A DNA stretch of 64,000 bases from assembly GCF_001580365.1 (NCBI RefSeq), contig NZ_CP014480.1:310001-374000 (forward strand). The letters are read 5' to 3'. How positions within the stretch are numbered: position 1 is the stretch's first letter; every line of letters starts with the position of its first letter. Positions 13,775-30,467 of this stretch are shown piece by piece. The translations under genes and the position numbers were made by a program. The DNA is from Kocuria turfanensis (GTDB lineage: Bacteria > Actinomycetota > Actinomycetes > Actinomycetales > Micrococcaceae). Below the pieces are notes generated by a model that had not been told where the DNA came from, searched no databases, and saw only the letters and a list, made by a program, of their open reading frames with translations.

Positions 13775-14275
13775 ATGGCCGACGCCCCCGCCGCCCGCAG
13801 CGGGCGCGCCCCCGAGCCGGCGGGTCCCGCCGGGCAGGACCGCCGCACCGTGCTCGCCGGCGCGCTGCTGGGCGCGGGCATCGCCGCCTCCGTGGTGGAC
13901 CTCGCCGTGTTCCACCTCATCCTGCACTGGCACCACTTCTACGACCTGTCCACCACCGGCGTCGCGCTGTTCTCGGACGGCCTCTTCCACGCCTTCGGCT
14001 GGTTCGTGACGGTCGGCTCGCTCTTCCTGCTCGCCGACGTGCGGCGCCGCGGGCCCGTGTCCCGGGGGCGCTGGGCCGGGGCGCTGCTGGCCGGCCTGGG
14101 CGCCTTCCAGCTCTTCGACGGCGTGGTGCTGCACAAGGTGCTCCGGATCCACCAGGTCCGCTACGACGTGGACCTGCTGCTCTACGACGCCACCTGGATC
14201 GGGACCGCCGTGCTCGCGCTCGCGGCGGGGCTGGGGGTGCTCCACCGCGCCCGGCCCGCCCGGGCCGCCCGGTGA
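13775..14275 (+). CDS. DUF2243 family membrane protein
   Basis: 166 residues with four predicted membrane helices (VLAGALLGAGIAASVVDL, GLFHAFGWFVTVGSLFLLA, WAGALLAGLGAFQLFDGVV, TAVLALAAGLGVL). The histidine pattern FHLILHWHHFYD and the FDGVVLHKVLRIHQVR element are the hallmark of DUF2243. CAGGAGG lies before the ATG. The stop overlaps the GTG of ctaG (GTGA), so the two are co-translated. The conserved histidines and its partner suggest a role around copper or cytochrome oxidase assembly; that is inference from context. Confidence 0.85.
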   Translation: MADAPAARSGRAPEPAGPAGQDRRTVLAGALLGAGIAASVVDLAVFHLILHWHHFYDLSTTGVALFSDGLFHAFGWFVTVGSLFLLADVRRRGPVSRGRWAGALLAGLGAFQLFDGVVLHKVLRIHQVRYDVDLLLYDATWIGTAVLALAAGLGVLHRARPARAAR

Positions 14276-15051
14276 GCCCGCACCACGGCGGCCCGGACTG
14301 GGCCGCCGTCGAGGCCGCGGCCGGGCTCGTCCTGGTGGCGGGTGCGGCCGGGTACGCCGCGGCGCTGTGGGCGGCCCGGCACCGCGGCCCGTGGCCGGGC
14401 GGACGGACGGTCCTGTGGTTCGCGGGGCTCGGCTGCGCGGGGGCGTCCCTGCTCGGACCCCTGGCCGCCGCCGCCCACGGCAGCTTCGTCGCCCACATGG
14501 TGGTGCACCTGCTCCTCGGGATGGCGGCGCCGCTGCTGCTCGTGCTCGGCGCGCCCGTGACCCTGGCGCTGCGGGCGCTGCCCGTGGCCGGCGCCCGGTC
14601 CCTGTCCCGGCTCCTGCGCAGCCGTCCGGTCCGGGTGGTGAGCCACCCGGTGGTGGCGGGGACGCTGAACGCCGGCGGGCTCTGGGTGCTGTACGGCACC
14701 GGCCTGTACGCCGCCATGCACTCCTCGGCGCCGGTGCACGCGGCCGTGCACGCCCACGTGCTGCTCGCCGGGTACCTCTTCACCGCGGCGGTCGTGGGCG
14801 TGGACCCCGACCCCCACCGGGGATCCCTCCGCCTGCGCGCGGCGGTGCTGGTGGGGTTCCTGACCGTGCACGCGGTGCTGGCGAAGCGGCTCTCCGGGGA
14901 CCCGCCCGCCGGGGTGGGCACCGCCGACGCGCAGCTGGGGTCCAGGATCATGTACTACGGCGGGGACGCCGTGGACGTGGCCCTGCTCGTGGTCTTCTTC
15001 GCCCAGTGGTACGCCGCCGGCCGGACCCGGACGGCCCCGGCGGCGGTGTGA
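14272..15051 (+). CDS. ctaG: cytochrome c oxidase assembly factor (caa3-type CtaG)
   Basis: 259-residue integral membrane protein with about seven helices. Conserved histidine-bearing helices HMVVHLLLGMAAPLLL, HSSAPVHAAVHAHVLLAG and a YYGGDAVDVALLVVFFAQWY end segment fit the caa3_CtaG family, which supports copper insertion into cytochrome oxidase. It starts with GTG overlapping the DUF2243 stop by 4 bp. Length is close to normal for the single-domain form (larger actinobacterial versions are fused to CopD). No oxidase structural genes are in the window. Confidence 0.85.
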   Translation: MSPHHGGPDWAAVEAAAGLVLVAGAAGYAAALWAARHRGPWPGGRTVLWFAGLGCAGASLLGPLAAAAHGSFVAHMVVHLLLGMAAPLLLVLGAPVTLALRALPVAGARSLSRLLRSRPVRVVSHPVVAGTLNAGGLWVLYGTGLYAAMHSSAPVHAAVHAHVLLAGYLFTAAVVGVDPDPHRGSLRLRAAVLVGFLTVHAVLAKRLSGDPPAGVGTADAQLGSRIMYYGGDAVDVALLVVFFAQWYAAGRTRTAPAAV

Positions 15052-15061
15052 ACGGCCGGGC

Positions 15062-15334
15062 TCAGGCCGCCGGCGCGGAGCCGCCCCGGGCCTCGAGCTC
15101 GGCGAGGAGCTCGTCGTGCCGGTCCTGGGTGACGGGGTGCGGGCCGTCCGGACCGGTCAGGTACTCGTGCTCGAGCTGGCACGCGACCCGGCTGTGCAGC
15201 ACCTGCAGCTCCACCAGGGACAGGGCGGAGAGCTCGGCGGGGAAGGCGCAGTCCGGGCCCAGGCACGTCTCGCAGCCGGGCGTTCCCCCGGCGGCGGGGC
15301 CGGCCGGGGACGGGACGGTGTCGAGGCCGCTCAT
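15062..15334 (-). CDS. small Cys-containing protein
   Basis: 90 residues from ATG 15334, overlapping the upstream 38-residue peptide gene by 4 bp (ATGA). It carries CETCLGPDC near residues 22-30, a possible metal or redox site, then an acidic helical region (LSALSLVELQVLHSRVACQLEHEYL ... DRHDELLAELEARG) that looks like a coiled protein-binding module. It lies convergent with ctaG, 10 bp away. I do not know the family. The overlap implies it works with, or on, the short peptide encoded just upstream. Confidence 0.65.
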   Translation of the reverse strand: MSGLDTVPSPAGPAAGGTPGCETCLGPDCAFPAELSALSLVELQVLHSRVACQLEHEYLTGPDGPHPVTQDRHDELLAELEARGGSAPAA

Positions 15335-15447
15335 GCCGCCACCCCCGCCGGGTCGGTCCCGCCGGGGGGCCGCGGGACGGGGACGGTGCCGGTGCGGCAC
15401 CGGGCGACCGGGTCGATCTGCACGACGACGGTCAGCTGGGAGTCCAT
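15331..15447 (-). CDS. 38-residue peptide gene
   Basis: A short gene with a good GGAAGGA ribosome binding site 8-14 bp before its ATG. The product starts MDSQLTVVVQIDPVARC and ends in a Pro/Gly-rich tail (PVPRPPGGTDPAGVAA) with one Cys. Its stop overlaps the ATG of the Cys-containing protein. Conserved coupling to a small partner is typical of leader or modified peptides, but no modifying enzyme is next to it, so a function cannot be assigned. Missed easily because of its length. Confidence 0.55.
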   Translation of the reverse strand: MDSQLTVVVQIDPVARCRTGTVPVPRPPGGTDPAGVAA

Positions 15448-15624
15448 GGAGGATTCCTTCCACAACGGGACGGCGTGGCCGGCTGCTTGACCCGTGAGGT
15501 CGAGCTTAGACCCGCCCGCCCCCCGCCACCAGGGGAAATGCGCAGCCGCGCGCCGGCCGGGGCGGGGGCCCGCCCACGGTGCGGTGTGCCGGACCGGGGC
15601 CCGCCGGCCGGTAGCCTCGGGGGC

Positions 15625-16596
15625 ATGCGCACACTCGTGGTCGGTTGGTCCAGCGTCCTGCACGGCGAGGCGACGGCCGGTGACGTCCTCGCCATGGACG
15701 CCGTCGCCGACGCCCTCGGCGCGGCCGGCATCCCGCACGACGTCGCCTGGAGCGCGGTGATGTGCCCGCCCGGCGGGCTGCGCCTCGACGACGCCGACCC
15801 CGGCCGGTACACGGATCTCGTGTTCGTCTGCGGGCCGGCCACCGGCCGCTCGATCGCCGAGCTGCACGAGCGCTTCGCCCACTGCCGCCGGACCGCGGTG
15901 GGGGTCAGCGTGCTCGACCCCGCCGACCCGGTGACCGCCGGGTTCCACCGGGTGATCGCCCGCGACCGCCCCGGGTCCGGGGCCCACCGCGATCTGGCGG
16001 CCCGCCCGGCGCCGCAGGCGGTGCCCGTGCTGGGGGTCTACCTCACCTCCGGGCAGCAGGAGTACGGTGCCCGCCGCCGGCACGAGACGACGCGGGCCGG
16101 GCTCGAGGCGTGGCTGGGCGGGCTGGACGCGGCCCGGCTGCCGCTGGAGACCCGGCTGGACCCGCGCGACTGGCGGCTGCCCGCCACCGCGGCCCAGGTC
16201 GGCTCCGTCATCGCCCGGCTCGACGCCGTCGTGACCATGCGCATGCACGGTCTCGTCCTGGCCCTGCGGGCGGGGGTCCCCGTCCTGGCCGTGGACCCCG
16301 TCGCCGGGGGCGGGAAGGTCACCGCCCAGGCGCGGGCCTGGGACTGGCCGGCCGTCGTCGGGCCCGAGGAGCTGGGCGCCGACCGCCTCGAGGAGCAGCT
16401 GCACTGGTGCCTGTCGGAGGACGGGCGGAAGGCGGCCCAGGCGCGCTCCGCGAAGGATCCCAGCGGGGCCGAGCAGCTGCACGACCTCGTCCGGTCGCTG
16501 GGCGGCACCCCGCGCCTCGACGCGGCCGGCCGGCTCGGCGGCGGGATCTCCGACGGGCTCCTCGAGAGCGCCGGAACCCCCGCGCACCAGCGGTGA
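15625..16596 (+). CDS. polysaccharide pyruvyl transferase family protein
   Basis: 323 residues, starting MRTLVVGWSSVLHGEATAGD, a nucleotide-sugar-like Rossmann start. The segment TMRMHGLVLALRAGVPVLAVD (residues ~204-224) is the signature of the polysaccharide pyruvyl transferase (PF04230) family, which adds ketal pyruvate to sugars of exo- or cell-wall polysaccharides. It precedes the carbamoyltransferase by 49 bp and opens the glycan locus. The N-terminal ~50 codons of the open frame before the ATG are not coding-like. Substrate unknown. Confidence 0.75.
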   Translation: MRTLVVGWSSVLHGEATAGDVLAMDAVADALGAAGIPHDVAWSAVMCPPGGLRLDDADPGRYTDLVFVCGPATGRSIAELHERFAHCRRTAVGVSVLDPADPVTAGFHRVIARDRPGSGAHRDLAARPAPQAVPVLGVYLTSGQQEYGARRRHETTRAGLEAWLGGLDAARLPLETRLDPRDWRLPATAAQVGSVIARLDAVVTMRMHGLVLALRAGVPVLAVDPVAGGGKVTAQARAWDWPAVVGPEELGADRLEEQLHWCLSEDGRKAAQARSAKDPSGAEQLHDLVRSLGGTPRLDAAGRLGGGISDGLLESAGTPAHQR

Positions 16597-16645
16597 CACG
16601 CCCCCAAGATCAGCCGCCTGATCAGTCTGTGTAATACTCCGCTCT

Positions 16646-18283
16646 ATGAACTACCTGGGCATCAACGCGATTTTTCACGACCCCGCGGCGGCTCTCGTCG
16701 TGGACGGCAGAGTGGTGGCGGCGGCGGAGGAGGAGCGGTTCTCCCGGCGCAAGCACGGCAAGCGGCCCGTGCCGTTCTCCGCGTGGGAGCTGCCCGAGCA
16801 GGCGATGCGCTGGTGCCTCGCCGAGGCCGGGCTGACCCCGGCGGACCTGGACGCCGTCGGCTACTCCTTCGACCCGGCGATCGCCGCCGAGATGCCGGAC
16901 GACCCGTACGACCCGGTCCGGGTGGACTACGCCCGCCGCGCCCCGGGCTTCCTCGCCGAGGCGCTGCCCGGCCTGGACCGGGACAAGGTCCGCTTCGTCG
17001 AGCACCACGTCGCCCACGCGGCGTCGGCGGGCCTGGCCGCCCCCTCCCGCACCAGCAGCGTGCTCGTGGTCGACGGCCGCGGCGAGGCGCACTCGCACCT
17101 GGCCGGCCGCTACCGCGACGGCGAGCTGGAGATCCTGCACCGCCAGGCCCTGCCGGAGTCCCTGGGCCTGCTCTACGAGTCCCTCACCGACCACCTCGGC
17201 TTCCTGCGCTCCTCCGACGAGTTCAAGGTCATGGCCCTGGCCTCCTACGGCGAGCCCCGCTTCCTGCCCGAGCTGCGCGAGATCGTCCGCGCCACCGGCG
17301 ACGGCGGGTTCACCGCCCAGGCCCCGGACTGGAGCCGCTTCGCCTCCCGCCGGATCGACGACGGCACCTGGGGCGGGGACCACGCCGACCTCGCCGCCTC
17401 CGTGCAGGCGGTGGTCGAGGAGGTCCTGGTGGACCTCGCCACCTGGCTGCACGGACAGACCGGCGACCGGGTGCTCACCATGGCCGGCGGCACCGCCCTG
17501 AACTGCGTGGCCAACTCCCGCATCTGGCGGGACACCCCCTTCGAGGAGGTCTGGGTCCAGCCCGCCTCCGGCGACTCCGGCACCGCCCTCGGCGCCGCCC
17601 TGCACCTGGCCCAGGAGGCCGGTGACCTGGGGGAGCCGCAGCCCACCGCCGCCCTCGGGCGCAGCTGGTCCGACGAGGAGCTCGCGCAGTGGCTGCGCAC
17701 CGCCCAGGTGCCCTTCACCACGCCCGAGGACCTCGCCGGGGAGGTCGCCGACGTCCTCGCGGACAACGGGGTCGTCGCCTGGTTCGACGGCCGCAGCGAG
17801 TTCGGCCCCCGCGCCCTGGGCCGCCGGTCCCTGATCGCCAACCCGATGCACCCGGACAACCTCGAGCGGCTCAACGACGTCAAGGGCCGGGAGCAGTTCC
17901 GCCCCGTGGCGCCCATGGTCCTCGAGGAGCGCGCCGCGGAGATCTTCAGCGGCGGACCGATGCCCAGCCCGTTCATGCTGTTCGTGCACGACGTGGCCCC
18001 GGAGTGGCGGGAGAAGATCCCCACGGTCACCCACGTGGACGGCACGGCGCGCATCCAGACCGTCACGGACGAGGACAACGCCGGGATCGCGGCGCTGCTG
18101 CGGGCCTTCGACGAGCGCACGGGCGTGCCCGTCGTCGTGAACACCTCGCTCAACACCGCCGGCCGTCCCATGGTCGACGACCCCCGCGACGCCCTCGAGC
18201 TCTTCGGCTCCGCCCCCGTGGCCGCGCTCGTGCTGGGCCCGCACCTGGTCCGTCGCGCCTCCTTCTTCCAGGAGGCCCGATGA
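16646..18283 (+). CDS. NodU/CmcH/TobZ-type O-carbamoyltransferase
   Basis: 545-residue carbamoyltransferase. The N-terminal Kae1-like domain has GINAIFHDPAAALVVDG, EEERFSRRKHG and the metal-binding HHVAHAASAG (residues ~116-125). VVDGRGEAHS and MAGGTALNCVAN form the nucleotide site. The C-terminal YrdC-related part has FGPRALGRRSLIANP and VNTSLNTAGRP. These enzymes transfer carbamoyl from carbamoyl phosphate via carbamoyl-AMP to a sugar or antibiotic hydroxyl. Position inside the heptose and glycosyltransferase genes suggests a carbamoylated sugar in the envelope glycan. Its TGA overlaps the next ATG (ATGA). Length is near the family norm. Confidence 0.92.
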   Translation: MNYLGINAIFHDPAAALVVDGRVVAAAEEERFSRRKHGKRPVPFSAWELPEQAMRWCLAEAGLTPADLDAVGYSFDPAIAAEMPDDPYDPVRVDYARRAPGFLAEALPGLDRDKVRFVEHHVAHAASAGLAAPSRTSSVLVVDGRGEAHSHLAGRYRDGELEILHRQALPESLGLLYESLTDHLGFLRSSDEFKVMALASYGEPRFLPELREIVRATGDGGFTAQAPDWSRFASRRIDDGTWGGDHADLAASVQAVVEEVLVDLATWLHGQTGDRVLTMAGGTALNCVANSRIWRDTPFEEVWVQPASGDSGTALGAALHLAQEAGDLGEPQPTAALGRSWSDEELAQWLRTAQVPFTTPEDLAGEVADVLADNGVVAWFDGRSEFGPRALGRRSLIANPMHPDNLERLNDVKGREQFRPVAPMVLEERAAEIFSGGPMPSPFMLFVHDVAPEWREKIPTVTHVDGTARIQTVTDEDNAGIAALLRAFDERTGVPVVVNTSLNTAGRPMVDDPRDALELFGSAPVAALVLGPHLVRRASFFQEAR

Positions 18284-19908
18284 CGACGGCACCCACCGAG
18301 ACCGCCACCTACGCCGTCGTCATCCCCTCGGTGGGCCGGCCCACCCTGCAGTGGCTGCTGGACACCCTCTCCGCCCAGGACGTCGACGCCCGCCACCCCG
18401 GCCCGCTGGAGGTCGTCGTGGTCGACGACCGCCGCGGGGACGTGGCGCCGCTGCAGCTGACGGTCCCGGACACCGTCGCCTGGACCGTGCGCACCGTGCG
18501 CGGCTACGGGCGCGGCCCCGCCGCGGCCCGCAACCGCGGCTGGCGCGCCGCCCGGCGCTCGGGTGCCGAGTGGATCGCGTTCCTCGACGACGACGTCGAG
18601 CTGCCCGCCGGCTGGGCCCAGCGCCTGGCCGAGGACCTCGCCGCCTGCGGGCCCGAGATCGGCGCGACCCAGGGCCGCATCGACGTCCCGCTGCCGGACA
18701 CCCGCCGGCCCACGGACTGGGAGCGCAACACCGCCTCCCTCCAGGACGCCGACTGGGCCACCGCCGACATGGCCTACCGGGTGGCGGCCCTGGAAGCCGT
18801 CTCCGGCTTCGACGAGCGGTTCCCGCGCGCCTACCGCGAGGACGCCGACCTCGCCCTGCGCGTGCGCCGGGCGGGCTGGCAGCTCGTGCGGGGCGAGCGG
18901 CGGATCACCCACCCGGTGCGCCCGGCCGACGACCTGGTGAGCCTGCGCGTGCAGGCCGGCAACGCCGACGACGCCCTGATGCGCCGGCTGCACGGGCCGG
19001 ACTGGCGCGCCGCGGCCGAGGCGCCCCGCGGCGGCTTCGCGTGGCACGTCGCCACCGTCGGCGCCCTGGGGGTCACCGCCGCCGGGGCGGCCACGGCCGC
19101 CGGCGCCGCCGCCCTGGGCCGGCGCTCGGGCGCCCGCACCGCCCTGGCCGCGGCCGGCACCGGCGCCGCGGCCTGGGGCTGGCTCACCGGCCGGTTCCTG
19201 ATGCTGCGCATGGGCCCGGGCCCGCGGCCCGGGGACCCCGAGTTCCTGCCCGAGCTCAGCCGCATGACCCGCACCAGCGCCGCGATCCCCGTGGCCGCCG
19301 TGCGGCACAAGCTGCGCGGCCGGTGGCGGCACCGGGGGACCGGTCCCTGGCCGGTCCCGGTGCGGGCGGTGCTCTTCGACCGGGACGGCACCCTCGTGCA
19401 CGACGTGCCCTACAACGGCGACCCGGCCAAGGTGGAGCTCGTGCCCGGGGCGGAGGAGGCCGTGGCCGCCGTGCGCGCCGCCGGGCTCGCCGTGGGCGTG
19501 GTCTCCAACCAGTCCGGCATCGGCCGCGGCCTGCTCACCCGCGCGCAGGTCGACGCCGTCAACGCCCGGGTGGCCGAGCTGCTCGGCCCCTTCGACACCT
19601 GGCAGCTGTGCCCGCACGCCCCCGAGGACCGCTGCGCGTGCCGCAAGCCGAGCCCTGGCATGGTGCTCGCCGCCGCCGCGGAGCTGGGCGTGCAGCCCGC
19701 CGAGTGCGTGCTGATCGGGGACATCGGCGCCGACGTCGAGGCGGCCCAGGCCGCCGGGGCGCGCTCCGTGCTGGTGCCCACGCCCGTGACCCGCGAGGAG
19801 GAGGTCGCCGCCGCCCCCGCGGTGGCCGCGACCCTGACCGAGGCGGTCGCCTCCGTGCTGGGCACCCCGACCGGCCGCCCGGCCGTGCCCGCCGGGGCCC
19901 GGGGCTGA
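18280..19908 (+). CDS. fusion: family 2 glycosyltransferase - GmhB-type heptose bisphosphate phosphatase
   Basis: 542 residues. Residues 1-~300 are a GT-A glycosyltransferase: VVIPSVGRPTL, VVVDDR, FLDDDVELP (DxD) and a YREDADLALRVRRAG catalytic loop. Around 265-310 is Ala/Gly-rich sequence that may touch the membrane. Residues ~360-510 are a HAD-IIIA phosphatase of the GmhB type: FDRDGTLVHD, SNQSGIGRG, the zinc knuckle CPHAPEDRCACRKP and IGDIGADVEAAQAAGA. GmhB removes the C7 phosphate from D-glycero-D-manno-heptose 1,7-bisphosphate. The start overlaps the carbamoyltransferase stop. Fusion of a transferase to its precursor pathway enzyme suggests channelling; that is inference. Confidence 0.9.
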   Translation: MTTAPTETATYAVVIPSVGRPTLQWLLDTLSAQDVDARHPGPLEVVVVDDRRGDVAPLQLTVPDTVAWTVRTVRGYGRGPAAARNRGWRAARRSGAEWIAFLDDDVELPAGWAQRLAEDLAACGPEIGATQGRIDVPLPDTRRPTDWERNTASLQDADWATADMAYRVAALEAVSGFDERFPRAYREDADLALRVRRAGWQLVRGERRITHPVRPADDLVSLRVQAGNADDALMRRLHGPDWRAAAEAPRGGFAWHVATVGALGVTAAGAATAAGAAALGRRSGARTALAAAGTGAAAWGWLTGRFLMLRMGPGPRPGDPEFLPELSRMTRTSAAIPVAAVRHKLRGRWRHRGTGPWPVPVRAVLFDRDGTLVHDVPYNGDPAKVELVPGAEEAVAAVRAAGLAVGVVSNQSGIGRGLLTRAQVDAVNARVAELLGPFDTWQLCPHAPEDRCACRKPSPGMVLAAAAELGVQPAECVLIGDIGADVEAAQAAGARSVLVPTPVTREEEVAAAPAVAATLTEAVASVLGTPTGRPAVPAGARG

Positions 19909-19910
19909 GC

Positions 19911-21020
19911 GTGGGCCGCATCCTCGCCGTCCGCCTCGACTCGGACGGGGACGTCCTGCTGACCGGCCCCGCGCTCCGGGCCCTGGCCCGCACCGGGAGC
20001 CCGGTGGACCTGCTGGCCTCGCCCTCCGGGGCGGCCGCCGCCCGGCTGCTGCCGGACGTGGCGCAGGTCCTCGAGCACTCGGCGCCCTGGTCGGGCTTCC
20101 GGCCGCCGCCGGTGGACCCGGAGGCCACCCTCGGCCTCGTCGGGGAGCTCGCCGCCCGGGGCTACGACCTCGCCGTGATCTTCACGTCCTTCCACCAGAG
20201 CCCCCTGCCCATGGCGCTGCTGGCCCGCCTCGCCGGGATCCCCCGGGTGGTGGCCACCAGCGAGGACTACCCGGGGTCCCTGCTCGACGTCCGGCACCGC
20301 CGCGCCGACCCGCCCGGCGGCGGGCACGAGGTCGAGGCGGCCGTGGAGCTCGCCGTCGCGGCCGGCGCGCCGCCGGCCACCGGGGACGAGCTGCGCCTGG
20401 CCGTGCGCCGCCCGCTGCCCCCGCTGCCGCCGGAGCTCGCGGACGCCGTCCCGGGCGGGGGCTACGTGGTGCTGCACCCGGGTGCCTCCGTCCCCTCCCG
20501 CGGTCTGACCCCCGAGCACGCCGGGTCCCTCGCGGCCGGGCTCGCGGCCGCGGGGCACACCGTGGTCCTGACCGGCGGTCCGGGGGAGCGCGAGCTCACC
20601 GCGGCGACCCGGGCCGCCGCGCTGCGCACGGCGCCCGAGGGCGCCGTGCTGGACCTCGCCGGCCGCACGGACCTGTCGGGCCTGGCCGCCGTGCTCGACG
20701 CCGCGGCCTGCGTCGTCGTCGGCAACACGGGCCCGGCCCACCTCGCCGCCGCCGTGGGCACCCCGGTCGTGTCCCTCTTCTCCCCGGTGGTCCCGCCCGA
20801 GCGGTGGGCCCCCTACGGGGTGCCGGTCGTGCTGCTCGGCGACCAGACCGCGCCCTGCCGCGGCTCCCGGGCCCGCGACTGCCCCGTCCCCGGGCACCCG
20901 TGCCTGTCCGAGGTCCCGCCCGCGGCCGTGCTCGCCGCCGTCGAGGACCTCACGCGCCGCCCCGCGGGCGCCCCCGCCCCTGTTCCCGCACCGGAAGGAG
21001 GACCCCGATGCGCGTCCTGA
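19911..21020 (+). CDS. family 9 glycosyltransferase (heptosyltransferase-like)
   Basis: 369 residues starting with GTG two bases after the previous stop. It has the GT9 layout: ILAVRLDSDGDVLLTGPALRAL (N-terminal, cf. RxxxxGDvllt-tP), VVLHPGASVPSRGLTPEH near 225-245, TGGPGERELT and VVGNTGPAHLAAAVGTPVV. GT9 enzymes move heptose from ADP-heptose onto glycans. The C-terminal Cys-bearing stretch (APCRGSRARDCPVPGHPC) is common in this family. The last 13 bp overlap the next gene and contain its AAGGAGG ribosome binding site. Confidence 0.88.
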   Translation: MGRILAVRLDSDGDVLLTGPALRALARTGSPVDLLASPSGAAAARLLPDVAQVLEHSAPWSGFRPPPVDPEATLGLVGELAARGYDLAVIFTSFHQSPLPMALLARLAGIPRVVATSEDYPGSLLDVRHRRADPPGGGHEVEAAVELAVAAGAPPATGDELRLAVRRPLPPLPPELADAVPGGGYVVLHPGASVPSRGLTPEHAGSLAAGLAAAGHTVVLTGGPGERELTAATRAAALRTAPEGAVLDLAGRTDLSGLAAVLDAAACVVVGNTGPAHLAAAVGTPVVSLFSPVVPPERWAPYGVPVVLLGDQTAPCRGSRARDCPVPGHPCLSEVPPAAVLAAVEDLTRRPAGAPAPVPAPEGGPRCAS

Positions 21021-21967
21021 TCTGGCACGTCCACGGCTCGTGGACCACCTCGTTCGTCCACGGCTCCCACACCTGCCTGCTGCCCGTGGTCGAGGACCGC
21101 GGCCCCGACGGCCGGGGCCGCGCCCGCACCTGGGACTGGCCCGCCTCCGCCGTGGAGCTCGGCCCGGCCGAGCTGGCCGACGCCGACATCGACGCCGTGG
21201 TGCTCCAGCGCCCGCACGAGCTCGAGCTCCTCGAGCGCTGGACCGGGCGCCGGGCCGGGACCGACCTCCCGGCCGTGTACGTGGAGCACGACACCCCGCG
21301 CGGACCCGCCGTGGCCACCCGCCACCCGATGGCGGAGCGCTCCGACATCCCGGTGGTGCACGTGACGCACTTCAACCGGATGATGTGGGACAACGGGCAG
21401 GCGCCCACGGAGGTCGTGGAGCACGGCATCCTCGACCCCGGCCCGCTCTACACCGGGCACGCCGCCAGCCTGGCCGCGGTGGTCAACGAGCCCGTCCGTC
21501 GCGGGCGGATCGCGGGCACCGACCTGCTGACCGCCCTGGCCCGGGAGCTGCCGGTGGACGTGTACGGGATGGGCATGGACCGGCTGGCCGAGCACGCGCC
21601 CCACATGGCCGGGCGGTTGCACGAGAACTATCCTCAGGAGAAGCTGCACGGGGCCCTCGGCGAGCACCGGGCCTACTTCCACCCCTACCGGTGGACGAGC
21701 CTGGGGCTGGCGCTGCTCGAGGCCATGACCATCGGCATGCCGGTGCTCGGGCTCTCGACCACCGAGGCGCCGCGCGCCGTGCCGCCGGGGGCGGGGCTGC
21801 TCTCCAACGACCCGGAGGCCCTCGCCGCGCAGGCCCGGCACTGGCTGAACGACCCCGACGCGGCGGCCGCCGCGGGCACCGCCGCCCGCGAGCACGCCCT
21901 GAGACACTACGGTCTGGACCGCTTCCTGGCGGACTGGGACCGCATCCTGGAGAAGGTGACTGCATGA
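21008..21967 (+). CDS. GT4-like glycosyltransferase
   Basis: 319 residues from ATG 21008. Residues 1-~110 form a short, atypical N-terminal Rossmann domain (MRVLIWHVHGSWTTSFVHG). The C-terminal half has YFHPYRWTSLGLALLEAMTIG, the GT-B donor-binding E-x7-E region, followed by a helical close. It resembles transferases that recur beside actinobacterial heptose genes. Overlaps on both sides (13 bp before, 4 bp after) place it firmly in the operon. Donor and acceptor are unknown. Confidence 0.8.
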   Translation: MRVLIWHVHGSWTTSFVHGSHTCLLPVVEDRGPDGRGRARTWDWPASAVELGPAELADADIDAVVLQRPHELELLERWTGRRAGTDLPAVYVEHDTPRGPAVATRHPMAERSDIPVVHVTHFNRMMWDNGQAPTEVVEHGILDPGPLYTGHAASLAAVVNEPVRRGRIAGTDLLTALARELPVDVYGMGMDRLAEHAPHMAGRLHENYPQEKLHGALGEHRAYFHPYRWTSLGLALLEAMTIGMPVLGLSTTEAPRAVPPGAGLLSNDPEALAAQARHWLNDPDAAAAAGTAAREHALRHYGLDRFLADWDRILEKVTA

Positions 21968-23823
21968 GAATCGCAATGGTGTCCGAGCACGCCAGTCCCC
22001 TGGCCGCACTCGGCGGGGTCGACGCCGGGGGGCAGAACGTCTACGTGGCCGCCCTGGCCACGGGCCTGGCCCGCCGCGGCCACGAGGTCGTCGTCTACAC
22101 GCGGCGCGACGCCGTGCGGCTCCCCGACGTCGTGGAGCTCGCCCCCGGCGCGCGCGTGGTGCACGTCCCGGCCGGGCCAGCGAGCCCGCTGCCCAAGGAC
22201 GACCTCGCCCCCTACATGGACGAGTTCGGCCGCTGGCTCGCCCGGGACTGGGCGCGCACCGGCGCCCCCGACCTCGTGCACGCGCACTTCTGGATGTCCG
22301 GGATCGCCGCCCGTCGGGCCGCCGAGGCCCTGCAGATCCCGGTGGTGCAGACCTTCCACGCCCTCGGCGCCGTCAAGCGCCGCCACCAGGGCGCGGCGGA
22401 CACCAGCCCGGTCGGCCGGCTCGCGGCGGAGAACGAGATCATCGCCGCCGCGGACCTGGTCCTGGCCACCTGCCGGGACGAGCGCGCGGAGCTGCTCGCC
22501 CTGGGCGGGGACGACTCCCGGATCGACGTCGTGCCCTGCGGGGTGGACCTGGACGCCTTCGTCCCGGCACCGCCGCCCACCGGCCGGCGCCGGCCCCGGA
22601 TCCTGGCCCTCGGCCGGCTGGTGGAGCGCAAGGGCGTCGACGTCGTCGTGCGGGCCCTGGCCGAGCTGCCCGAGGCCGAGCTCGTCGTGGCGGGCGGCCC
22701 GGACCGGGCCGACCTCGACCGCGACCCCGAGGCCCTGCGGCTGCGCGCCCTGGCCCGCGAGCTCGGCGTGGACGGCCGCCTGGAGCTGCTCGGGCGCGTG
22801 GACCACGACGACACCGCTGCCCTGCTGGCCGGCGCGGACGTCGTGGCCTGCACCCCCTGGTACGAGCCCTTCGGCATGGTCCCGCTCGAGGCGATGGCCT
22901 GCGCCCGCCCCGTGGTCGGCACCGCCGTGGGCGGGCTGCTCGACAGCGTGGAGGACGGCGTGACCGGCCTGCACGTGCCCCCGCGCGACGTCGCCGGCAC
23001 CGCCGCCGCCCTGCGCGCCCTGCTGGAGGACCCCGGGCTGGCCGCCCGGATGGGCCGCGCCGGCCGCGAGCGCGTCGAACGGCTCTTCGGCTGGGAGCGC
23101 GTCGCGGAGGAGACGGAGCGCTCCTACGCCCGGGTGCTCGAGCGCCACCGGCGCGAGCACCCGCCGCTGCGCGACCGGACCGAGCTGTGGCTGGAGACGC
23201 ACGCGCACGAGCTCGCCGTCGCGGCGCGCGAGGCCGCCCGGCACGCCGACGTGGTGGACCGCTGGGGCGCCCGCCTGGCCGGGCTGCTGACCGACGGCGG
23301 GCGCGTGCTCGCCGCCGGCAACGGCGGCAGCGCCGCGGAGGCCCAGCACTTCACCGCCGAGCTCGTGGGCCGCTTCGTCGACGAGCGCCGCCCGCTGTCG
23401 GCCCTCTGCCTGTCCGCCGAGACCTCCAGCCTCACCGCGATCGTCAACGACTACGGCGCGGAGGAGGTCTTCGCCCGCCAGGTGGGCGCCCACGGCCGCC
23501 CCGGGGACGTCCTGGTGGTGCTCTCCACCAGCGGGCGCAGCCCCAACGTGCTGGCCGCCGCCGAGCGGGCGCGCGAGCAGGGGATGCACGTCTGGGCGCT
23601 CACCGGCCCGGGCCCCAACCCGCTGACCGAGCGGGCGGACGAGTTCCTGACGGTGCCCGCCACCAGCACCTCGGTGATCCAGGAGGTGCACCTGATGCTG
23701 CTGCACGCCGTGTGCGCGGCCGTCGACGCCCGGCTGGTCCCGGCCGCGGAGGAGCCCGCGAGCGGGGACGAGCGGACCGGTGAGCTCGCGGCGCGCGACG
23801 CCGTGCGGGCGGGGGTCGCATGA
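21964..23823 (+). CDS. fusion: GT4 glycosyltransferase - GmhA-type sedoheptulose-7-phosphate isomerase
   Basis: 619 residues. Residues 1-~400 are a GT4 transferase (GGVDAGGQNVYVAALATGLA, VVPCGVDLDAF, LGRLVERKGVD, and PWYEPFGMVPLEAMACARPV with the E-x7-E pair). Residues ~415-595 are a SIS-domain isomerase: LAAGNGGSAAEAQHFTAELVGRF and VLSTSGRSPNVLAAA, the sugar-phosphate loops of GmhA, which makes D-glycero-D-manno-heptose 7-phosphate from sedoheptulose 7-phosphate. The linker around 400-420 is charged (RHRREHPPLRDRTE). Both halves look complete. The gene overlaps its neighbours by 4 bp at each end. Confidence 0.92.
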   Translation: MRIAMVSEHASPLAALGGVDAGGQNVYVAALATGLARRGHEVVVYTRRDAVRLPDVVELAPGARVVHVPAGPASPLPKDDLAPYMDEFGRWLARDWARTGAPDLVHAHFWMSGIAARRAAEALQIPVVQTFHALGAVKRRHQGAADTSPVGRLAAENEIIAAADLVLATCRDERAELLALGGDDSRIDVVPCGVDLDAFVPAPPPTGRRRPRILALGRLVERKGVDVVVRALAELPEAELVVAGGPDRADLDRDPEALRLRALARELGVDGRLELLGRVDHDDTAALLAGADVVACTPWYEPFGMVPLEAMACARPVVGTAVGGLLDSVEDGVTGLHVPPRDVAGTAAALRALLEDPGLAARMGRAGRERVERLFGWERVAEETERSYARVLERHRREHPPLRDRTELWLETHAHELAVAAREAARHADVVDRWGARLAGLLTDGGRVLAAGNGGSAAEAQHFTAELVGRFVDERRPLSALCLSAETSSLTAIVNDYGAEEVFARQVGAHGRPGDVLVVLSTSGRSPNVLAAAERAREQGMHVWALTGPGPNPLTERADEFLTVPATSTSVIQEVHLMLLHAVCAAVDARLVPAAEEPASGDERTGELAARDAVRAGVA

Positions 23824-25226
23824 GCGCGGCACGCATCGTCGTGGTCGGCGACGCCCTGCTGGACCGGGACGTGGCCGGGACCTCGACCCGGCTCAGCCCC
23901 GACGCCCCGGTCCCGGTGGTGGACGTGGACGCCGTCTTCGCCAGCCCGGGCGGGGCCGGCCTGGCCGCCCTGCTGTGCGCGGAGCCCCCGGCGGTCGGGG
24001 CCGTCCCGGCGCGGGTGACGGTGACGCTGCTGGCGCCGGTGGCCGAGGACGACGCCGGCCGGCAGCTGGCCGACGCGCTCGGGGACGTCCGCCTGGAGCG
24101 GCTCGGCCACGAGGGCGGCACCCGCACCAAGACCCGGGTCCGCAGCGCGGGCCAGACCCTCGTGCGCGTGGACGAGGGCGGGCCCGGCACCCCGGTCGGC
24201 GTCACGGCCGCGCACGTGGCCGCCGTCCTGGCGGAGGCCGACGCCGTGCTGGTCTCCGACTACGGGGGAGGCGTCACCGCCGACCCCGCCGTGCGCGCGG
24301 CGCTGGAGGAGCACGCCCGCACCGGCGTGGTCGTCTGGGACCCGCACCCGCGCGGCGGCGCCCCGGTGCCGGGCTGCACGCTCGTCACCCCGAACGCCGC
24401 CGAGGCCGCGGCCGCCCTCGACGCCCCGGGCACGCCCCGGGACCTGGCGGGCGGGCTGCGGCGGCACTGGGCCGCCCACGCCGTGGCCGTCACGGCCGGG
24501 GCGGACGGGGCGTACCTGGCCACGGCCACGGGCGTGGAGCTGGTGCCGGCGGCGCCGGTGCAGAACACGGATCCCTGCGGGGCGGGGGACCGGTTCGCCT
24601 CCGCGGCGGCGCTGGCCCTGGGCGGCGGCGCCCATGTGACCGCGGCCGTGGAGACCGCCGTCGAGGCCGCGGGCCAGTGGGTCGCCGCCGGCGGCGCGGC
24701 CACCTACCGCACCCGCCGCGCCGCCGGGGTGCACGCCCGCCCGGCCCTGCACCCGGGCGCCGAGCGGCTGCCCCGGGAGGTGCAGGAGCTGCTGAGCGAG
24801 GTCCGCGGGCGCGGCGGGACCGTGGTGGCCACCGGCGGCTGCTTCGACGTGCTGCACGCCGGGCACATCGCCTCCCTGGACGCCGCGCGGCGCCTGGGCG
24901 ACGCCCTCGTGGTGCTGCTGAACGCCGACGACTCCGTGCGCCGGCTCAAGGGCCCGGGCCGGCCCGTGGTCGGCGAGGCCGACCGCGCCCGGGTGCTGAG
25001 CGCGCTGCGCAGCGTCGACGCGGTCGTGGTCTTCGACGAGGACGACCCGCGCGCGGCCCTGAACCTGCTCCGCCCCGACGTGTGGGTCAAGGGCGGGGAC
25101 TACACCCCCGAGCAGCTGCCCGAGGCCGCCGACGTTCGCGGCTGGGGCGGGCGGGTCACCGTGCTGCCCTACCTCTCGGGGCGCTCCACCACGGCCATCC
25201 TGCAGAAGGCCGGCCGTGAGCGCTGA
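23820..25226 (+). CDS. hldE: bifunctional heptose-7-phosphate kinase / heptose-1-phosphate nucleotidyltransferase
   Basis: 468 residues with the HldE (RfaE) layout. The N-terminal PfkB-type kinase has VVVGDALLDRDVAGTSTRL, SDYGGGV and the anion-hole motif DPCGAGDRFAS (residues ~256-266). The C-terminal cytidylyltransferase-like domain has TGGCFDVLHAGHIASLDAAR (HxGH), LKGPGRPVV and VKGGDY. It phosphorylates heptose 7-phosphate at C1 and later joins the 1-phosphate to a nucleotide, classically AMP. Together with the fused GmhA and GmhB this completes ADP-D-glycero-beta-D-manno-heptose synthesis. The kinase half is a little shorter than in Gram-negative HldE. Confidence 0.93.
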   Translation: MSAARIVVVGDALLDRDVAGTSTRLSPDAPVPVVDVDAVFASPGGAGLAALLCAEPPAVGAVPARVTVTLLAPVAEDDAGRQLADALGDVRLERLGHEGGTRTKTRVRSAGQTLVRVDEGGPGTPVGVTAAHVAAVLAEADAVLVSDYGGGVTADPAVRAALEEHARTGVVVWDPHPRGGAPVPGCTLVTPNAAEAAAALDAPGTPRDLAGGLRRHWAAHAVAVTAGADGAYLATATGVELVPAAPVQNTDPCGAGDRFASAAALALGGGAHVTAAVETAVEAAGQWVAAGGAATYRTRRAAGVHARPALHPGAERLPREVQELLSEVRGRGGTVVATGGCFDVLHAGHIASLDAARRLGDALVVLLNADDSVRRLKGPGRPVVGEADRARVLSALRSVDAVVVFDEDDPRAALNLLRPDVWVKGGDYTPEQLPEAADVRGWGGRVTVLPYLSGRSTTAILQKAGRER

Positions 25227-26229
25227 GCCGGCCACCGCGCAGCGCCGTCCCGCGCCCGGGCGGTGCACCGTGGACCCGGCCACGGTCGGGTCCGGGGACG
25301 TGCTCGTGCTGCGGGCGCTGGGCCTGGGGGACACGCTGACCGCGGTGGCCCCCCTGCGCGGCGTGCGCCGGATGCTGCCCGACCACCGGATCGTGCTCGC
25401 CGCCCCGGAGCCCCTGGGCTCCTGGCTGACCGAGCTCGGCGTCGTCGACGCAGTGCTGCCCCAGGCCGGGCTGGTCCCGCTGCCGCCGGTGCGCGGCGGG
25501 CACGTGGCCGTGAACCTGCACGGGCGCGGCCCGCGCAGCCACGAGCTGCTGCTGGCCTCCGGGCCCGAGCGGCTCGTCGGGTTCGCCGCCCCGGAGGCCG
25601 GGCATCCCGGTCCGGCCTGGCGGCGGGACGAGCACGAGGTGCACCGCTGGTGCCGCCTGGTGCGCGAGGCCGGCGGCCCGTGCGGTCCCGAGGACCTGCT
25701 CCTGCGGCCCCACCGCCCCGCGCCGGCCGGCGCCCCCGTGCTGATCCACCCGGGCGCCGCCTCCGGCTCCCGGCGCTGGCCCGCCGCGCGCTGGCGGGAG
25801 GTCGCCCGGGCGCTCGTCGCCGACGGCCACCGGGTCGTCGTCACCGGCACCCCGGCCGAGTCCGAGCTCGCCGCCGCCGTGGTGGACGGCGTGGCCGGCG
25901 CCGAGGACCGCTGCGGCACCCTGAGCCTGGCCGGGCTGGCCGGGGTCGTGGGGGACAGCGCCGCGGTGCTGAGCACGGACACCGGCGTGGCGCACGTGGC
26001 CACCGCCCTGGCCGTGCGCTCCGTGGTCCTGTTCGGCCCGACCCCGCCCGCGTGGTGGGGTCCGGCCGTGGACCCCGGGCTGCACACGGTCCTGTGGCAC
26101 GGCGACCCGTCCGCGCCGGCCTGGGGCGACCCGCACGCGGCGGAGCTCGACGAGCGCCTCGCCGCCGTCACCCCGGACGAGGTCCTGGCCGCGGCCCGGG
26201 CCCAGCTGGCCGCCGCCGCCCGCACCTGA
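25216..26229 (+). CDS. family 9 glycosyltransferase (heptosyltransferase-like)
   Basis: 337 residues from a GTG inside the end of hldE (11-bp overlap). GT9 signatures are [49 protein letters not shown] and [26 protein letters not shown]. It is the second GT9 in the operon, so at least two heptosyl-type transfers are likely. It is the last tightly coupled gene; a 62-bp gap follows. Confidence 0.9.
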
Positions 26230-26291
26230 GACCGGCCGGCGCCGCGGCCCCGCGCCGGCCCCACCATCCCTTGTCGATCCAGAGGAGCACC

Positions 26292-27293
26292 GTGAACCCC
26301 ACGCCCGACGTGACCACCCGCCCGATCCGCCGTGCCGTCGTGACCGGCGGCGCCGGCTTCCTCGGCAGCCACCTGTGCACCGAGCTGCGCCGCCGGGAGG
26401 TCGAGGTGGTGTGCCTCGACAACTTCCTGACCGGCTCCGCGGCCAACATCGAGCACCTCGTGGGCGACCCCGGGTTCCGGCTCGTCCAGTGCGACGTCAC
26501 CGACTACGTGCACGTGCCCGGCGACGTGGACCTGGTCCTGCACTTCGCCTCCCCGGCCTCCCCGATCGACTACCTCAAGCTGCCCATCCACACGCTCAAG
26601 GTCGGTTCGATCGGCACCCACCACGCCCTGGGCCTGGCCAAGGACAAGGGCGCCCGCTTCGTGCTCGCCTCCACCTCCGAGGTCTACGGCGACCCGCAGG
26701 TCCACCCCCAGCCCGAGAGCTACTGGGGCCACGTCAACCCGGTCGGTCCCCGCGGGGTGTACGACGAGGCCAAGCGCTTCGCCGAGGCCCTCACGGTCGC
26801 CTACCGCGCCCAGCACGGCGTGGACACCGGGATCGTGCGGATCTTCAACACCTTCGGCCCGCGGATGCGACCCTTCGACGGCCGGGCCATCCCCACGTTC
26901 ATCCGGCAGGCCCTCGCGGGGGAGCCGCTCACCGTCGCCGGCGACGGCGAGCAGACCCGCTCGGTCTGCTACGTCTCGGACCTGGTGCGGGGCATCCTCG
27001 CCCTGGCCGGCAGCGGGCACAGCGGGCCGATGAACATCGGCAACCCGCACGAGCTGTCCGTGCTGCAGATCGCCCGCGACGTCATCGCCGCCACCGGGTC
27101 CTCCTCGGCCGTGGAGTTCGTCGACCGCCCGGTCGACGACCCCATGGTGCGCCGGCCCGACACCGCGCTGGCCACGGAGGTCCTCGGCTGGGCGCCGGAG
27201 GTGCCCTGGAGCGAGGGCCTCGAGCGCACGGTCGAGTGGTTCCGGCGCGGCGCCGCCGCCCGCCCGGTCTCCGCCGCCCCGGGCCTGGGCTGA
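26292..27293 (+). CDS. NAD-dependent epimerase/decarboxylase, UDP-glucuronate decarboxylase-like
   Basis: 333 residues, GTG start with AGAGGAG upstream. Extended [20 protein letters not shown] (GxxGxxG), LDNFLTGS, the Ser/Thr of [10 protein letters not shown] and the active-site YDEAK. The elements [31 protein letters not shown] and [10 protein letters not shown] are those of UDP-xylose synthase (UXS), which turns UDP-glucuronate into UDP-xylose. A role as a nucleotide-heptose epimerase (HldD) is less likely from these motifs. It probably supplies a further sugar for the same glycan. Confidence 0.85.
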
Positions 27294-28213: not shown

Positions 28214-28389
28214 TGCCGGCCTCCCTCGCGCGACCACGGTGCCCGCCCGCGGCGCCGGCCGGTGCCGGGCGCCGCACCCGGCGGGTGTGACCGGCCGGGC
28301 CCGGGCCGAACAGTCTCCCACCGCGGCGAACCCGCCCACAAGACGGTGCGGCTTCGTGTCGGCAGCCGTTCCCTGCGCCGGCGCGCCAC

Positions 28390-29306
28390 CGGCTCCGCGC
28401 CCGGCGCTGGGAGTCCTCCAGGGCCAGGAAGCGCCGCTCCACCCGCTCGGGGAGGGGGCGCCGCTCGCGCAGCACCCACGGCGCCCCGCGCAGCGCGTCG
28501 AGCAGGGCCAGGGCCGTCACCCGGTCCCGCGGGGCGCCGCCGACCACGTCCCGGGTGCGGCGCAGCGCGGCCCGCAGCGGCCGGCGCAGCCAGATGAACC
28601 ACAGCGTGTTGCGCAGCCCGTGCCGGCGGCGAAGGTGCGGGTCCCGGACCGTCGAGGCCTGGTGGTGGACCACCACGTCGGGCAGGTGCACCAGCTCCCA
28701 GCCGGCGGTCGCGAGGTCCGCGGCCAGCAGCTCCTCCTCCCCGCCCAGCCACAGCCGCTCGCTGAAGCCGCCGACCTCCTGGAACGCCGTGCGGCGCACC
28801 ACGGAGGCCCCGGCCAGGAAGCTGCCCAGCGCCGGGCCCGGCAGCCAGTCGGGGCCCTGCACGGGGGAGTGCAGCAGCTCCGCGTTGATCGCGTCCTCGC
28901 GGGCGCCGGGCTCCACCAGGATCCGGCCGGTGACCACGCCCAGGCGCGGATGGGCCGCCAGGGCGTCGGCGGCCCGGCGCAGGGACCCCGGCTCCCACCA
29001 GGTGTCGTCGTCGCAGAAGGCCACGAACGGGGTCCGCACCCGCTCCATGGCCACGTTGCGGCCCACCGCGCCGAGGTTCACCGCGCTGGCCACCAGCTCC
29101 GCCCAGGGGTGCTGCTCGCGGATCGCGTCCGCGGTCCCGTCCTGCGAGCCGTTGTCGACCACCACCACGTGCGGGCGCTCGGGCAGCTCGCGCAGCCGCG
29201 CCAGCGCCAGCAACGCCTCGTCCCGGCGGTTGTAGGTGATCATCACCACCGCCACGCGCTCGTCGGGGCCGGTGCCGGTCGCGGGGGTGGGGGCGGTCTC
29301 GGTCAC
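28390..29306 (-). CDS. family 2 glycosyltransferase; 3' end unresolved (no proper stop)
   Basis: GTG start at 29306 overlaps the stop of the upstream GT2 gene (GTGA). About 305 residues are recognisable: VVMITYNRRDEALLALARL, VVVDNGSQDGTAD, FCDDDTWWEPG (DDD metal site), FLAGASVVRRTAFQEVGGF, LWLGGEEELLAADL and a helical end with RRFLALEDSQRR. After about position 28390 codon bias collapses, yet no in-frame stop appears: the same frame stays open far beyond the Rieske gene on the same strand. Either a frameshift lies near 28390, or the protein is read into unrelated sequence. The end coordinate given is where homology-like sequence stops. Confidence 0.7.
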
Positions 29307-30238
29307 GGGCTGTCCTCCGGTGCAGTGGAATCGGTGGCGGTCGGATCGGTGGCGGTCGGGTCGGTGGCGGTCGGGTCGGTGGTGGCCGGTGCGTGCAGCA
29401 GCGCCAGCGCGGCCTCCGTGGTGGGAGAGACGCGGCGGCGGGCCCGCAGGGCGGCCGGGACCCGGGGCAGGGCCCCGAGCACGCCGCGGCGCCCCGTGCG
29501 CCCGGCGCGCAGGGCGTCCCGCAGCTCCCGGCCCACGGCGCGCCAGGACCGGCGCATCAGCGCGGTCAGCAGGCGGCTGCGCACGAGCTCGGTCCGGCGG
29601 CGGTCGCTGGTCTCCCGGTGCGGGGAGGGGTGGTGGTGGGCCCGGATCTCCGGGACGTAGGCCAGCCGCCAGCCGGCGTCGAACAGGTCCAGGGCCACGC
29701 GCTCCTCCTCGCCGGGAAAGCGCACGACGTCGTCGAAGCCGCCGACCTCCAGGAACGCCGAGCGGCGCACGATCGCCCCGCAGCCCACGAAGCCGAGCAG
29801 CGCGGGGCCCGGGCACCCCGGGGGGATGCCCAGCGGGGAGGCCGCCAGCACGGCGTTGAGCGGGTCGGGACGCTCCTCGGGCCCCACGGCGATCGACCCG
29901 GCGAGCAGGCCCAGCCGGGGATGGGCGTCGAACACGGCGGCCGCGCGGGCGAGCGCGCCGGGGGCCCACCAGGAGTCGTCGTCGGCGAAGGCCACGTAGG
30001 GGGTGCGGGCCAGGCGCACGCCCACGGTGCGGGCCACCGCCCCGACGTTGCGCGGCAGGGGCACGACCCGCACGTGCGGGTGCGCCGCGCGCACCGCCTC
30101 GACGGAGCCGTCCGTGGAGGCGTTGTCGACGACGATCACGGGCCCCTCGTGCCGTCCCAGGTGCTCGACGAGCTCCTCCCGCCGGTTGCGGGTCGCCACG
30201 ACCACGGTGACGCGGTGCTGGGGGTCCGGGGCGTCCAT
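29303..30238 (-). CDS. family 2 glycosyltransferase
   Basis: 311 residues, ATG 30238 with AGAGGAA before it. GT-A features are VTVVVATRNRREELVEHL, VIVVDNASTDGSVEAV, FADDDSWWAPGALARA, FVGCGAIVRRSAFLEVGGF and FPGEEERVALDLFDAGW. It is a paralogue of the downstream gene and overlaps it by 4 bp. The C-terminus ends in four PTATD-like pentapeptides encoded by a 15-bp tandem repeat, probably a flexible tail. Divergent from the ATP-grasp operon with a 229-bp gap. Confidence 0.85.
   Translation of the reverse strand: MDAPDPQHRVTVVVATRNRREELVEHLGRHEGPVIVVDNASTDGSVEAVRAAHPHVRVVPLPRNVGAVARTVGVRLARTPYVAFADDDSWWAPGALARAAAVFDAHPRLGLLAGSIAVGPEERPDPLNAVLAASPLGIPPGCPGPALLGFVGCGAIVRRSAFLEVGGFDDVVRFPGEEERVALDLFDAGWRLAYVPEIRAHHHPSPHRETSDRRRTELVRSRLLTALMRRSWRAVGRELRDALRAGRTGRRGVLGALPRVPAALRARRRVSPTTEAALALLHAPATTDPTATDPTATDPTATDSTAPEDSP
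29331..29390. repeat. 15-bp tandem repeat, four units
   Basis: Units TCGGTGGCGGTCGGR at 29331, 29346 and 29361, and a diverged fourth at 29376, in the 3' end of the GT2 gene. In-frame 15-bp units would change protein tail length by five residues without breaking the frame. Confidence 0.85.
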
Positions 30239-30467
30239 CGGTTCCTCTCCGCTCGGGCCCGCCGCGCCCGGTCGGCCGGAGCGGCGTCGCGTCCGCGTCG
30301 GGCGGGCGCGCCATCCCATCGTAGGGGCACGTCCCGCCCGGTCCCGCGGCACGGCGCGTGACAGAATCGGAAGAACGCTCGGCATCCCGGTTACCACTGC
30401 GAAATACGGCGCGTCCATACTGCGGGTACAGACCGCCACGATCCCGAAAGGCGTGTGATCGCCCGAC

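Follow-up and report, generated by a model that had tools for sequence, protein, structure and literature searches.

A cwg-type operon of Kocuria turfanensis predicted to make NDP-D,D-heptose for a putative cell-envelope glycan

What would a Gram-positive actinobacterium do with the enzymes that produce nucleotide-activated heptose? The question is raised by a stretch of 64,000 nucleotides from the Gram-positive actinobacterium Kocuria turfanensis (assembly GCF_001580365.1, contig NZ_CP014480.1, positions 310,001-374,000), which will be referred to as "the window" and to which all positions below refer; the host genome comprises 4,159,643 bases in 5 contigs. A sequence-only reading of the window had described fused GmhA and GmhB domains, a bifunctional HldE, two GT9 glycosyltransferase genes and a carbamoyltransferase gene in one tight operon, and had predicted an envelope glycan containing D-glycero-D-manno-heptose. 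All these genes are present on the + strand where it had placed them, although it overlooked a GT1-type gene, a pyruvyltransferase-like gene and a UDP-xylose-synthase-like gene, the last of which, together with the other glycosyltransferases, changes the predicted product. We consider it probable (about 0.7) that this unit is an operon of the cwg type named in Streptomyces coelicolor, which would convert sedoheptulose 7-phosphate into a nucleoside diphosphate (NDP)-activated D,D-heptose for the GT9 enzymes to build into a glycan of the envelope that would carry O-carbamoyl groups and probably also contain xylose.

The unit spans positions 15625-27293, all on the + strand and tightly packed, in the order pyruvyltransferase-like, carbamoyltransferase, GT2-GmhB, GT9, GT1, GT4-GmhA, HldE, GT9 and UDP-xylose-synthase-like short-chain dehydrogenase/reductase (SDR) (Table 1). 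Within 16646-26229 the gene junctions comprise overlaps of 4, 13, 4, 4 and 11 bases and a single 2-base gap, a spacing that is operon-like; the end of GmhA and the start of HldE share an ATGA overlap, HldE lying in another frame. At the upstream end 49 bases separate the pyruvyltransferase-like gene, probably the first of the Kocuria unit, from the carbamoyltransferase gene, and at the downstream end 62 bases lie between the second GT9 gene and the SDR gene.

Both halves of HldE, a kinase (rfaE I) and a nucleotidyltransferase (rfaE II) domain, are present and fused, and the PRK11316 match covers residues 2-464, that is, the full length. Model TIGR02199 reaches 180.0 bits with the protein, against a cut-off of 181.5, and 183.2 bits, above that cut-off, in the genome scan; TIGR02198 reaches 133.1 bits. 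The kinase half matches the solved heptose 7-phosphate kinase 4e84, and the other half the putative cytidylyltransferase 5x9q. The C-terminal part of the GT4-GmhA protein matches solved phosphoheptose isomerases with up to 151 bits (5i01), and the GmhB domain the solved structure 4pnh with 89 bits. The latter domain is closer to the beta-anomer model (PRK08942, 120.7 bits) than to the alpha-anomer model (46.6 bits), which agrees with a pathway of the HldE type rather than one leading to GDP-heptose. HldE itself carries the GAGD, HxGH and RSTT motifs. Ninety related loci were compared, and wherever the alignment gave coverage the key residues were kept: GAGD of HldE in 79/79, H, G and H of HxGH in 80/80, H70, E74 and Q181 of GmhA in 87/87, and D20 and D22 of GmhB in 85/85.

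Domain identity and kept residues make a complete enzyme set from sedoheptulose 7-phosphate to NDP-D,D-heptose well supported. Isomerisation of sedoheptulose 7-phosphate by the GmhA domain would yield D-glycero-D-manno-heptose 7-phosphate, phosphorylation by the HldE kinase half would give the 1,7-bisphosphate, the GmhB domain would strip the 7-phosphate, and the product of the nucleotidyltransferase half, with no HldD acting afterwards, would remain in the D,D form. As regards the nucleotide, (F/L)XXGRSTT is given as the mark of nucleotidyltransferases that accept several nucleoside triphosphates (PMC11573728). The corresponding motif of the window is YLSGRSTT, with the arginine present and Y, not F or L, at position one; of 80 loci, 67 have the arginine, and at the first position 59 have Y, 13 L and 4 F. 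Supply of CDP- or UDP-heptose by this domain is possible.

The stereochemistry depends on HldD, the epimerase that the sequence-only reading had not seen. Nothing in the whole genome passes the HldD cut-off of 274.6 bits, the best match reaching 93.5, and none of 296 surveyed genomes of the class Actinomycetes passes it either (best match, 139.9 bits); in 14 control genomes, 2 pass the HldD cut-off and 3 that of HldE-II. Because there is no HldD above cut-off, the D-glycero-D-manno form, already foreseen by that reading, is to be expected throughout the class wherever this operon is present, barring an epimerase that is unrelated to HldD or has diverged far from it. In 295 of the 296 genomes the HldD model gives matches below threshold, as expected for the SDR superfamily, and these could conceal a strongly diverged HldD. 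The SDR at the downstream end was considered as a hidden HldD and rejected, given its 351 bits with UDP-glucuronate decarboxylase 1 (2b69) versus 57.8 bits with the HldD model. The absence of HldD above cut-off also fits a passage on a 2008 structure database in which L-glycero-D-manno-heptose was restricted to Gram-negatives (PMC2543016).

The GT1 gene served as the marker of the operon. The loci named here are the best 80 of at least 574 confirmed relatives of this gene (592 stretches), a sample that leans toward Kocuria-like loci and in which several loci end at contig ends, so that the absences of single genes are not all real. All 80 bear actinobacterial titles, including Kocuria, Citricoccus, Dietzia, Cellulomonas, Georgenia, Kineococcus, Streptomyces, Nocardiopsis, Micromonospora, Pseudonocardia and Geodermatophilus. 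GT1 is present in the 80 by construction, GT4 in 79, the first GT9 in 77, GmhA in 77, GmhB in 75, HldE in 74, GT2 in 67, the second GT9 in 66, the carbamoyltransferase in 65 and the SDR in 59; the pyruvyltransferase-like gene is found in 15, in some on the opposite strand. The core order GmhB-GT9-GT1-GT4-GmhA-HldE is kept on a single strand in 64 of these 80 and in 10/10 further related loci, and since it is kept across related loci the arrangement exceeds chance; of the remaining 16, several are truncated by a contig end and others show rearrangement. Nine genes follow in order from the carbamoyltransferase to the second GT9 in 47 of the 80; 24 have the ten-gene order that begins with the SDR, and 21 of these are among the 30 Streptomyces-titled loci.

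In the class survey, GT1 was counted at 379 bits or more and HldE-II at 143 bits or more, which left out weaker or partial matches (e.g., genome G305 at 222 bits). Strong GT1 matches were found in 71 of the 296 genomes and strong HldE-II matches in 69, both in 67, and within 12 kb of each other in 63; GT1 occurs alone in four genomes and HldE-II alone in two. The curated HldE-II cut-off is passed by 59 of the 69 (59/296 of the class). The operon is thus widespread in Actinomycetes, where the sequence-only reading had proposed to look for it, and the co-occurrence of GT1 and HldE-II counts in favour of a cwg-type heptose operon. The same survey contains 19 strong HldE-II places more than 12 kb away from any GT1. 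Within the genus, a full HldE is present in 8/27 genomes and the identical 8 hold the carbamoyltransferase, so the unit appears to come and go as a block.

In a GT1 tree with an arbitrary root, the GT1 of the window groups with Kocuria polaris (NZ_LQBK01000038.1, locus L049) and two other rows of the genus (support 100/99), and Kocuria, Citricoccus and Dietzia cluster together (100/99), separate from four further members of the window's family whose loci lack carbamoyltransferase and GT2 matches. Among the operons nearest to those of Kocuria are that of Dietzia aurantiaca (L050), a member of another order with a GT1 72% identical, and that of a Citricoccus metagenome-assembled genome (L051); this hints at horizontal transfer of the operon between lineages. 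Domains were regarded as fused when they shared a frame with no stop between the domain matches. By this definition, the 90 loci contain 38 GT2-GmhB, 11 GT4-GmhA and 10 GmhA-HldE fusions (17, 3 and 6 loci, respectively, not being judgeable), the window having the first two and not the third. Open frames of about 1085 amino acids in Kocuria relatives (L040, L041, L049) had seemed to be GT4-GmhA-HldE fusions and were rejected as such, GmhA and HldE differing in frame; open frames of great length are common in DNA this rich in G+C. As a separate observation, four same-family genomes hold two HldE genes roughly 5 kb apart (Table 1), the second of which in L039 and L045 adjoins a short-chain SDR, an extra GT9 and an aldehyde-dehydrogenase-like gene (names assigned by eye).

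The cwg operon of S. coelicolor is reportedly, going by the title of Hong et al. 2002 as cited, a target of sigma-E that is induced by antibiotics acting on the cell wall. In one listing this operon (sco6179-6190) has a sigma-E promoter and is assigned to cell wall glycan synthesis (PMC6767563); the "cell wall glycan" is a prediction in S. coelicolor itself, and the passages cited here on cwg do not state the product. A second source annotates five genes as transferases (cwgB, C, E, G and J), one as a dehydratase (cwgD), one as a phosphoheptose isomerase (cwgH) and one as a bifunctional synthase/transferase (cwgI; PMC5839063), and a third mentions SCO6185 as a stably transcribed glycosyltransferase close to cell wall synthesis (PMC4630627). 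The order of the Streptomyces loci, SDR-carbamoyltransferase-GT2-GmhB-GT9-GT1-GT4-GmhA-HldE-GT9, fits all eight cwg names place by place, where we infer that the "dehydratase" CwgD is a HisB-like GmhB. The window operon thus fits the cwg type by gene content and order, the S. coelicolor identity resting on the gene names of one passage. This analogy lends support to the end use proposed by the sequence-only reading, and a cell-envelope glycan appears the most likely product.

The later steps and the location of the product are what we infer from enzyme families, neighbourhood and the S. coelicolor operon. Heptose would be transferred by the two GT9 enzymes, both of which are above the general PF01075 cut-off and below the heptosyltransferase equivalog cut-offs (75.1/170.2 and 63.1/185.3 bits); the first matches the E. 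coli-type heptosyltransferase II 1psw weakly, and the second the heptosyltransferase I 2h1f with 48 bits. The position aligned with the D of the heptosyltransferase DTG/DSG motif is N in 87/89 loci in the first GT9 and D in 74/84 in the second, and the N may reflect a different donor or acceptor. GT1, whose N-terminus (WHVHGSW) is highly conserved and whose Pfam matches are weak (no more than 36.4 bits), would together with GT2 and GT4 attach other sugars, probably including xylose provided via the SDR. The carbamoyltransferase would finally place an O-carbamoyl group on the heptose or on another sugar; its best solved match is 7xb6 (316 bits), and with 204/1000 bits for the equivalog NF041651 it is not NodU proper and belongs to the wider family.

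Other destinations of the heptose have to be weighed. Decoration of a glycolipid or of a protein, and not of a wall polymer, seems unlikely, and it is a serious alternative. The GT4 part resembles MshA (TIGR03449, 269 bits, below the cut-off of 462.5), and the MshA family acts on small phosphorylated acceptors; protein heptosylation has been described in Gram-negatives (PMC11573728), and the name of the cwg product being itself predicted, the cwg likeness tests this possibility weakly. Nonetheless, the scanned operon genes include none recognisable as a lipid-acceptor or target-protein gene. Quite improbable is a secreted small molecule of the septacidin or hygromycin kind, the two products for which two Streptomyces are documented to make ADP-heptose (PMC10221265, in part). 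Members of the carbamoyltransferase family also modify antibiotics, and the window protein matches, besides 7xb6, the novobiocin enzyme, GdmN and TobZ; against this stand a unit present in about a quarter of the class sample (GT1 in 71/296), its five glycosyltransferase domains, its fit to the cwg operon listed as sigma-E-controlled, and the finding that 0/10 scanned proteins are typical natural-product assembly enzymes. That the three enzymes were repurposed for another sugar phosphate and make no heptose, for which the equivalog cut-offs missed by GmhA, GmhB and the whole HldE could speak, is very improbable, as all activities stay together with their key residues, HldE-II is above cut-off in the genome scan and two GT9 genes adjoin.

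Several points weigh against the preferred reading, a heptose-containing envelope glycan made by a cwg-type operon. The missed cut-offs lower its certainty: HldE reaches 278.7 bits of the 521 required by PRK11316, the GmhA domain 161.9 of 209.45 (TIGR00441), and the GmhB domain remains below the 178 of its beta-anomer model. The likeness to cwg is drawn from names and gene order and not from S. coelicolor sequences, and a scan of positions 14901-16700 on the + strand with two sigma-E-like promoter patterns found no site, Kocuria promoters possibly being different. No exporter, ligase or lipid-carrier enzyme was found among the scanned operon genes, the rest of the genome not having been searched. 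Finally, a passage that states its own caveat of false negatives finds the ADP-L,D-heptose pathway only in Gammaproteobacteria (PMC7725333), and no heptose-bearing actinobacterial wall glycan was found in the open-licence papers searched. Neither was a heptosyltransferase mentioned together with Kocuria in those papers; the text of PMC13390465 contains no "heptos".

Table 1. Positions of the operon genes, of neighbouring genes and of second HldE genes in related loci (window positions unless a locus is named).
Feature	Position	Strand	Basis
Pyruvyltransferase-like (polysaccharide), 323 aa (amino acids) from this start	15625..16596	+	Pfam PS_pyruv_trans 34.9 bits, short C-terminal stretch only
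O-carbamoyltransferase, NodU/TobZ kind, 545 aa	16646..18283	+	Pfam Carbam_trans_C 213.8 bits, Carbam_trans_N 175.6 bits
Fusion of GT2 and GmhB-like heptose bisphosphate phosphatase, 542 aa	18280..19908	+	PF00535 and HAD models
First GT9, heptosyltransferase-like	19911..21020	+	PF01075 83.7 bits
GT1-type glycosyltransferase, operon marker gene	21008..21967	+	PF00534 36.4 bits; alignment with 11 relatives
Fusion of GT4 (MshA/sucrose-phosphate-synthase-like) and GmhA-like phosphoheptose isomerase, 619 aa	21964..23823	+	PF00534, PF13439, SIS_2
HldE-like bifunctional heptose 7-phosphate kinase / heptose 1-phosphate nucleotidyltransferase, 468 aa	23820..25226	+	PRK11316, TIGR02199, TIGR02198
Second GT9, heptosyltransferase-like	25216..26229	+	PF01075 78.4 bits
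SDR, UDP-glucuronate decarboxylase (UDP-xylose synthase)-like	26292..27293	+	2b69 351 bits
GT2 facing the operon, possible extra part	29303..30469	-	PF00535 68.7 bits
Nearer GT2 facing the operon	28331..29306	-	
Circularly permuted ATP-grasp protein	30468..32096		PF14403 544.5 bits
CtaG-type cytochrome oxidase assembly gene	14272..15051		PF09678 211.4 bits
Second HldE, L039	7301-8818	-	
Second HldE, L045	12058-13488	+	
Second HldE, L046	7310-8752	-	
Second HldE, L048	14803-16185	+	

Around the unit, two GT2 genes on the - strand face the operon. The farther one adjoins the operon in both genus loci inspected (L133 and L134) and is a possible extra part of it. The nearer one follows its relatives as far as ...LEDSQR and then diverges from their shared end, and its frame is stop-free for 1951 codons in the window, which suggests a changed 3' end. 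Past these GT2 genes lies the gene of a circularly permuted ATP-grasp protein, and a CtaG-type cytochrome oxidase assembly gene lies directly upstream of the operon. In four operon-less genomes of the genus (L129-L132) the CtaG relative sits in a different neighbourhood, so gain and loss of the operon cannot be read from them. A terminator scan found nothing.

Altogether, the pathway is well supported as far as NDP-D,D-heptose, the glycan is plausible, and the novelty is modest: the sequence-only reading had taken the find for an unusual one, whereas the operon is common in Actinomycetes and fits the cwg type, and activated heptoses of actinobacteria are already in print. What the survey adds is that the heptose pathway of Actinomycetes is closely tied to cwg-type operons (of 71 genomes with GT1 and 69 with HldE-II, 67 have both), and this co-occurrence, together with the absence of HldD above cut-off in the 296 genomes, yields a sharp chemical prediction that can be tested by sugar analysis. 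More tentatively, with somewhat less than even odds, many Actinomycetes might share an unrecognised class of envelope glycans that combine D-glycero-D-manno-heptose (not the L,D form), O-carbamoyl groups and xylose and are encoded in one conserved operon, some nucleotidyltransferases perhaps giving CDP- or UDP-heptose. If true, such a glycan would correspond in Gram-positives to the heptose inner core, and the chemistry behind the cwg operon would be supplied. The survey further suggests that many harmless actinobacteria may produce NDP-heptoses, for which vertebrates have a sensing pathway through ALPK1 (PMC11573728).

The comparison with known systems places the operon among several relatives. 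Tridomain NDP-heptose synthetases of actinobacteria were reportedly the subject of Tang et al. 2022, to judge by the title, and Tang et al. 2018, likewise by title, is said to cover the Streptomyces heptose pathways of septacidin and hygromycin B. As far as that title goes, the tridomain synthetases share with the window the isomerase, kinase and nucleotidyltransferase activities leading to NDP-heptose in an actinobacterium; unlike them, the window has its isomerase fused to GT4 and HldE as a separate two-domain protein. NDP-heptose synthesis in actinobacteria being already published, a Gram-positive heptose pathway is not new in kind. The septacidin and hygromycin B pathways also make heptose from sedoheptulose 7-phosphate in a Gram-positive, as a passage of PMC10221265 describes, but serve secondary metabolites, whereas the neighbours in the window are glycosyltransferases (a comparison made without the gene clusters). 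The Pseudomonas lipopolysaccharide (LPS) core cluster likewise combines GmhA, GmhB, HldE, GT9 and a carbamoyltransferase (PMC8005017, in part), and carbamoylated core heptose is known in Pseudomonas LPS, with WapO as the putative carbamoyltransferase, in passages of PMC8005017 and PMC7168646; in contrast to the LPS heptose pathway, the window genome is Gram-positive, has no HldD above cut-off and carries GT9 proteins far below the LPS heptosyltransferase cut-offs. Compared with the Streptomyces loci and the cwg type, to which the operon comes closest in content and order, the window has the SDR last instead of first, GT2-GmhB and GT4-GmhA as fused proteins, and a pyruvyltransferase-like gene at the head of the unit.

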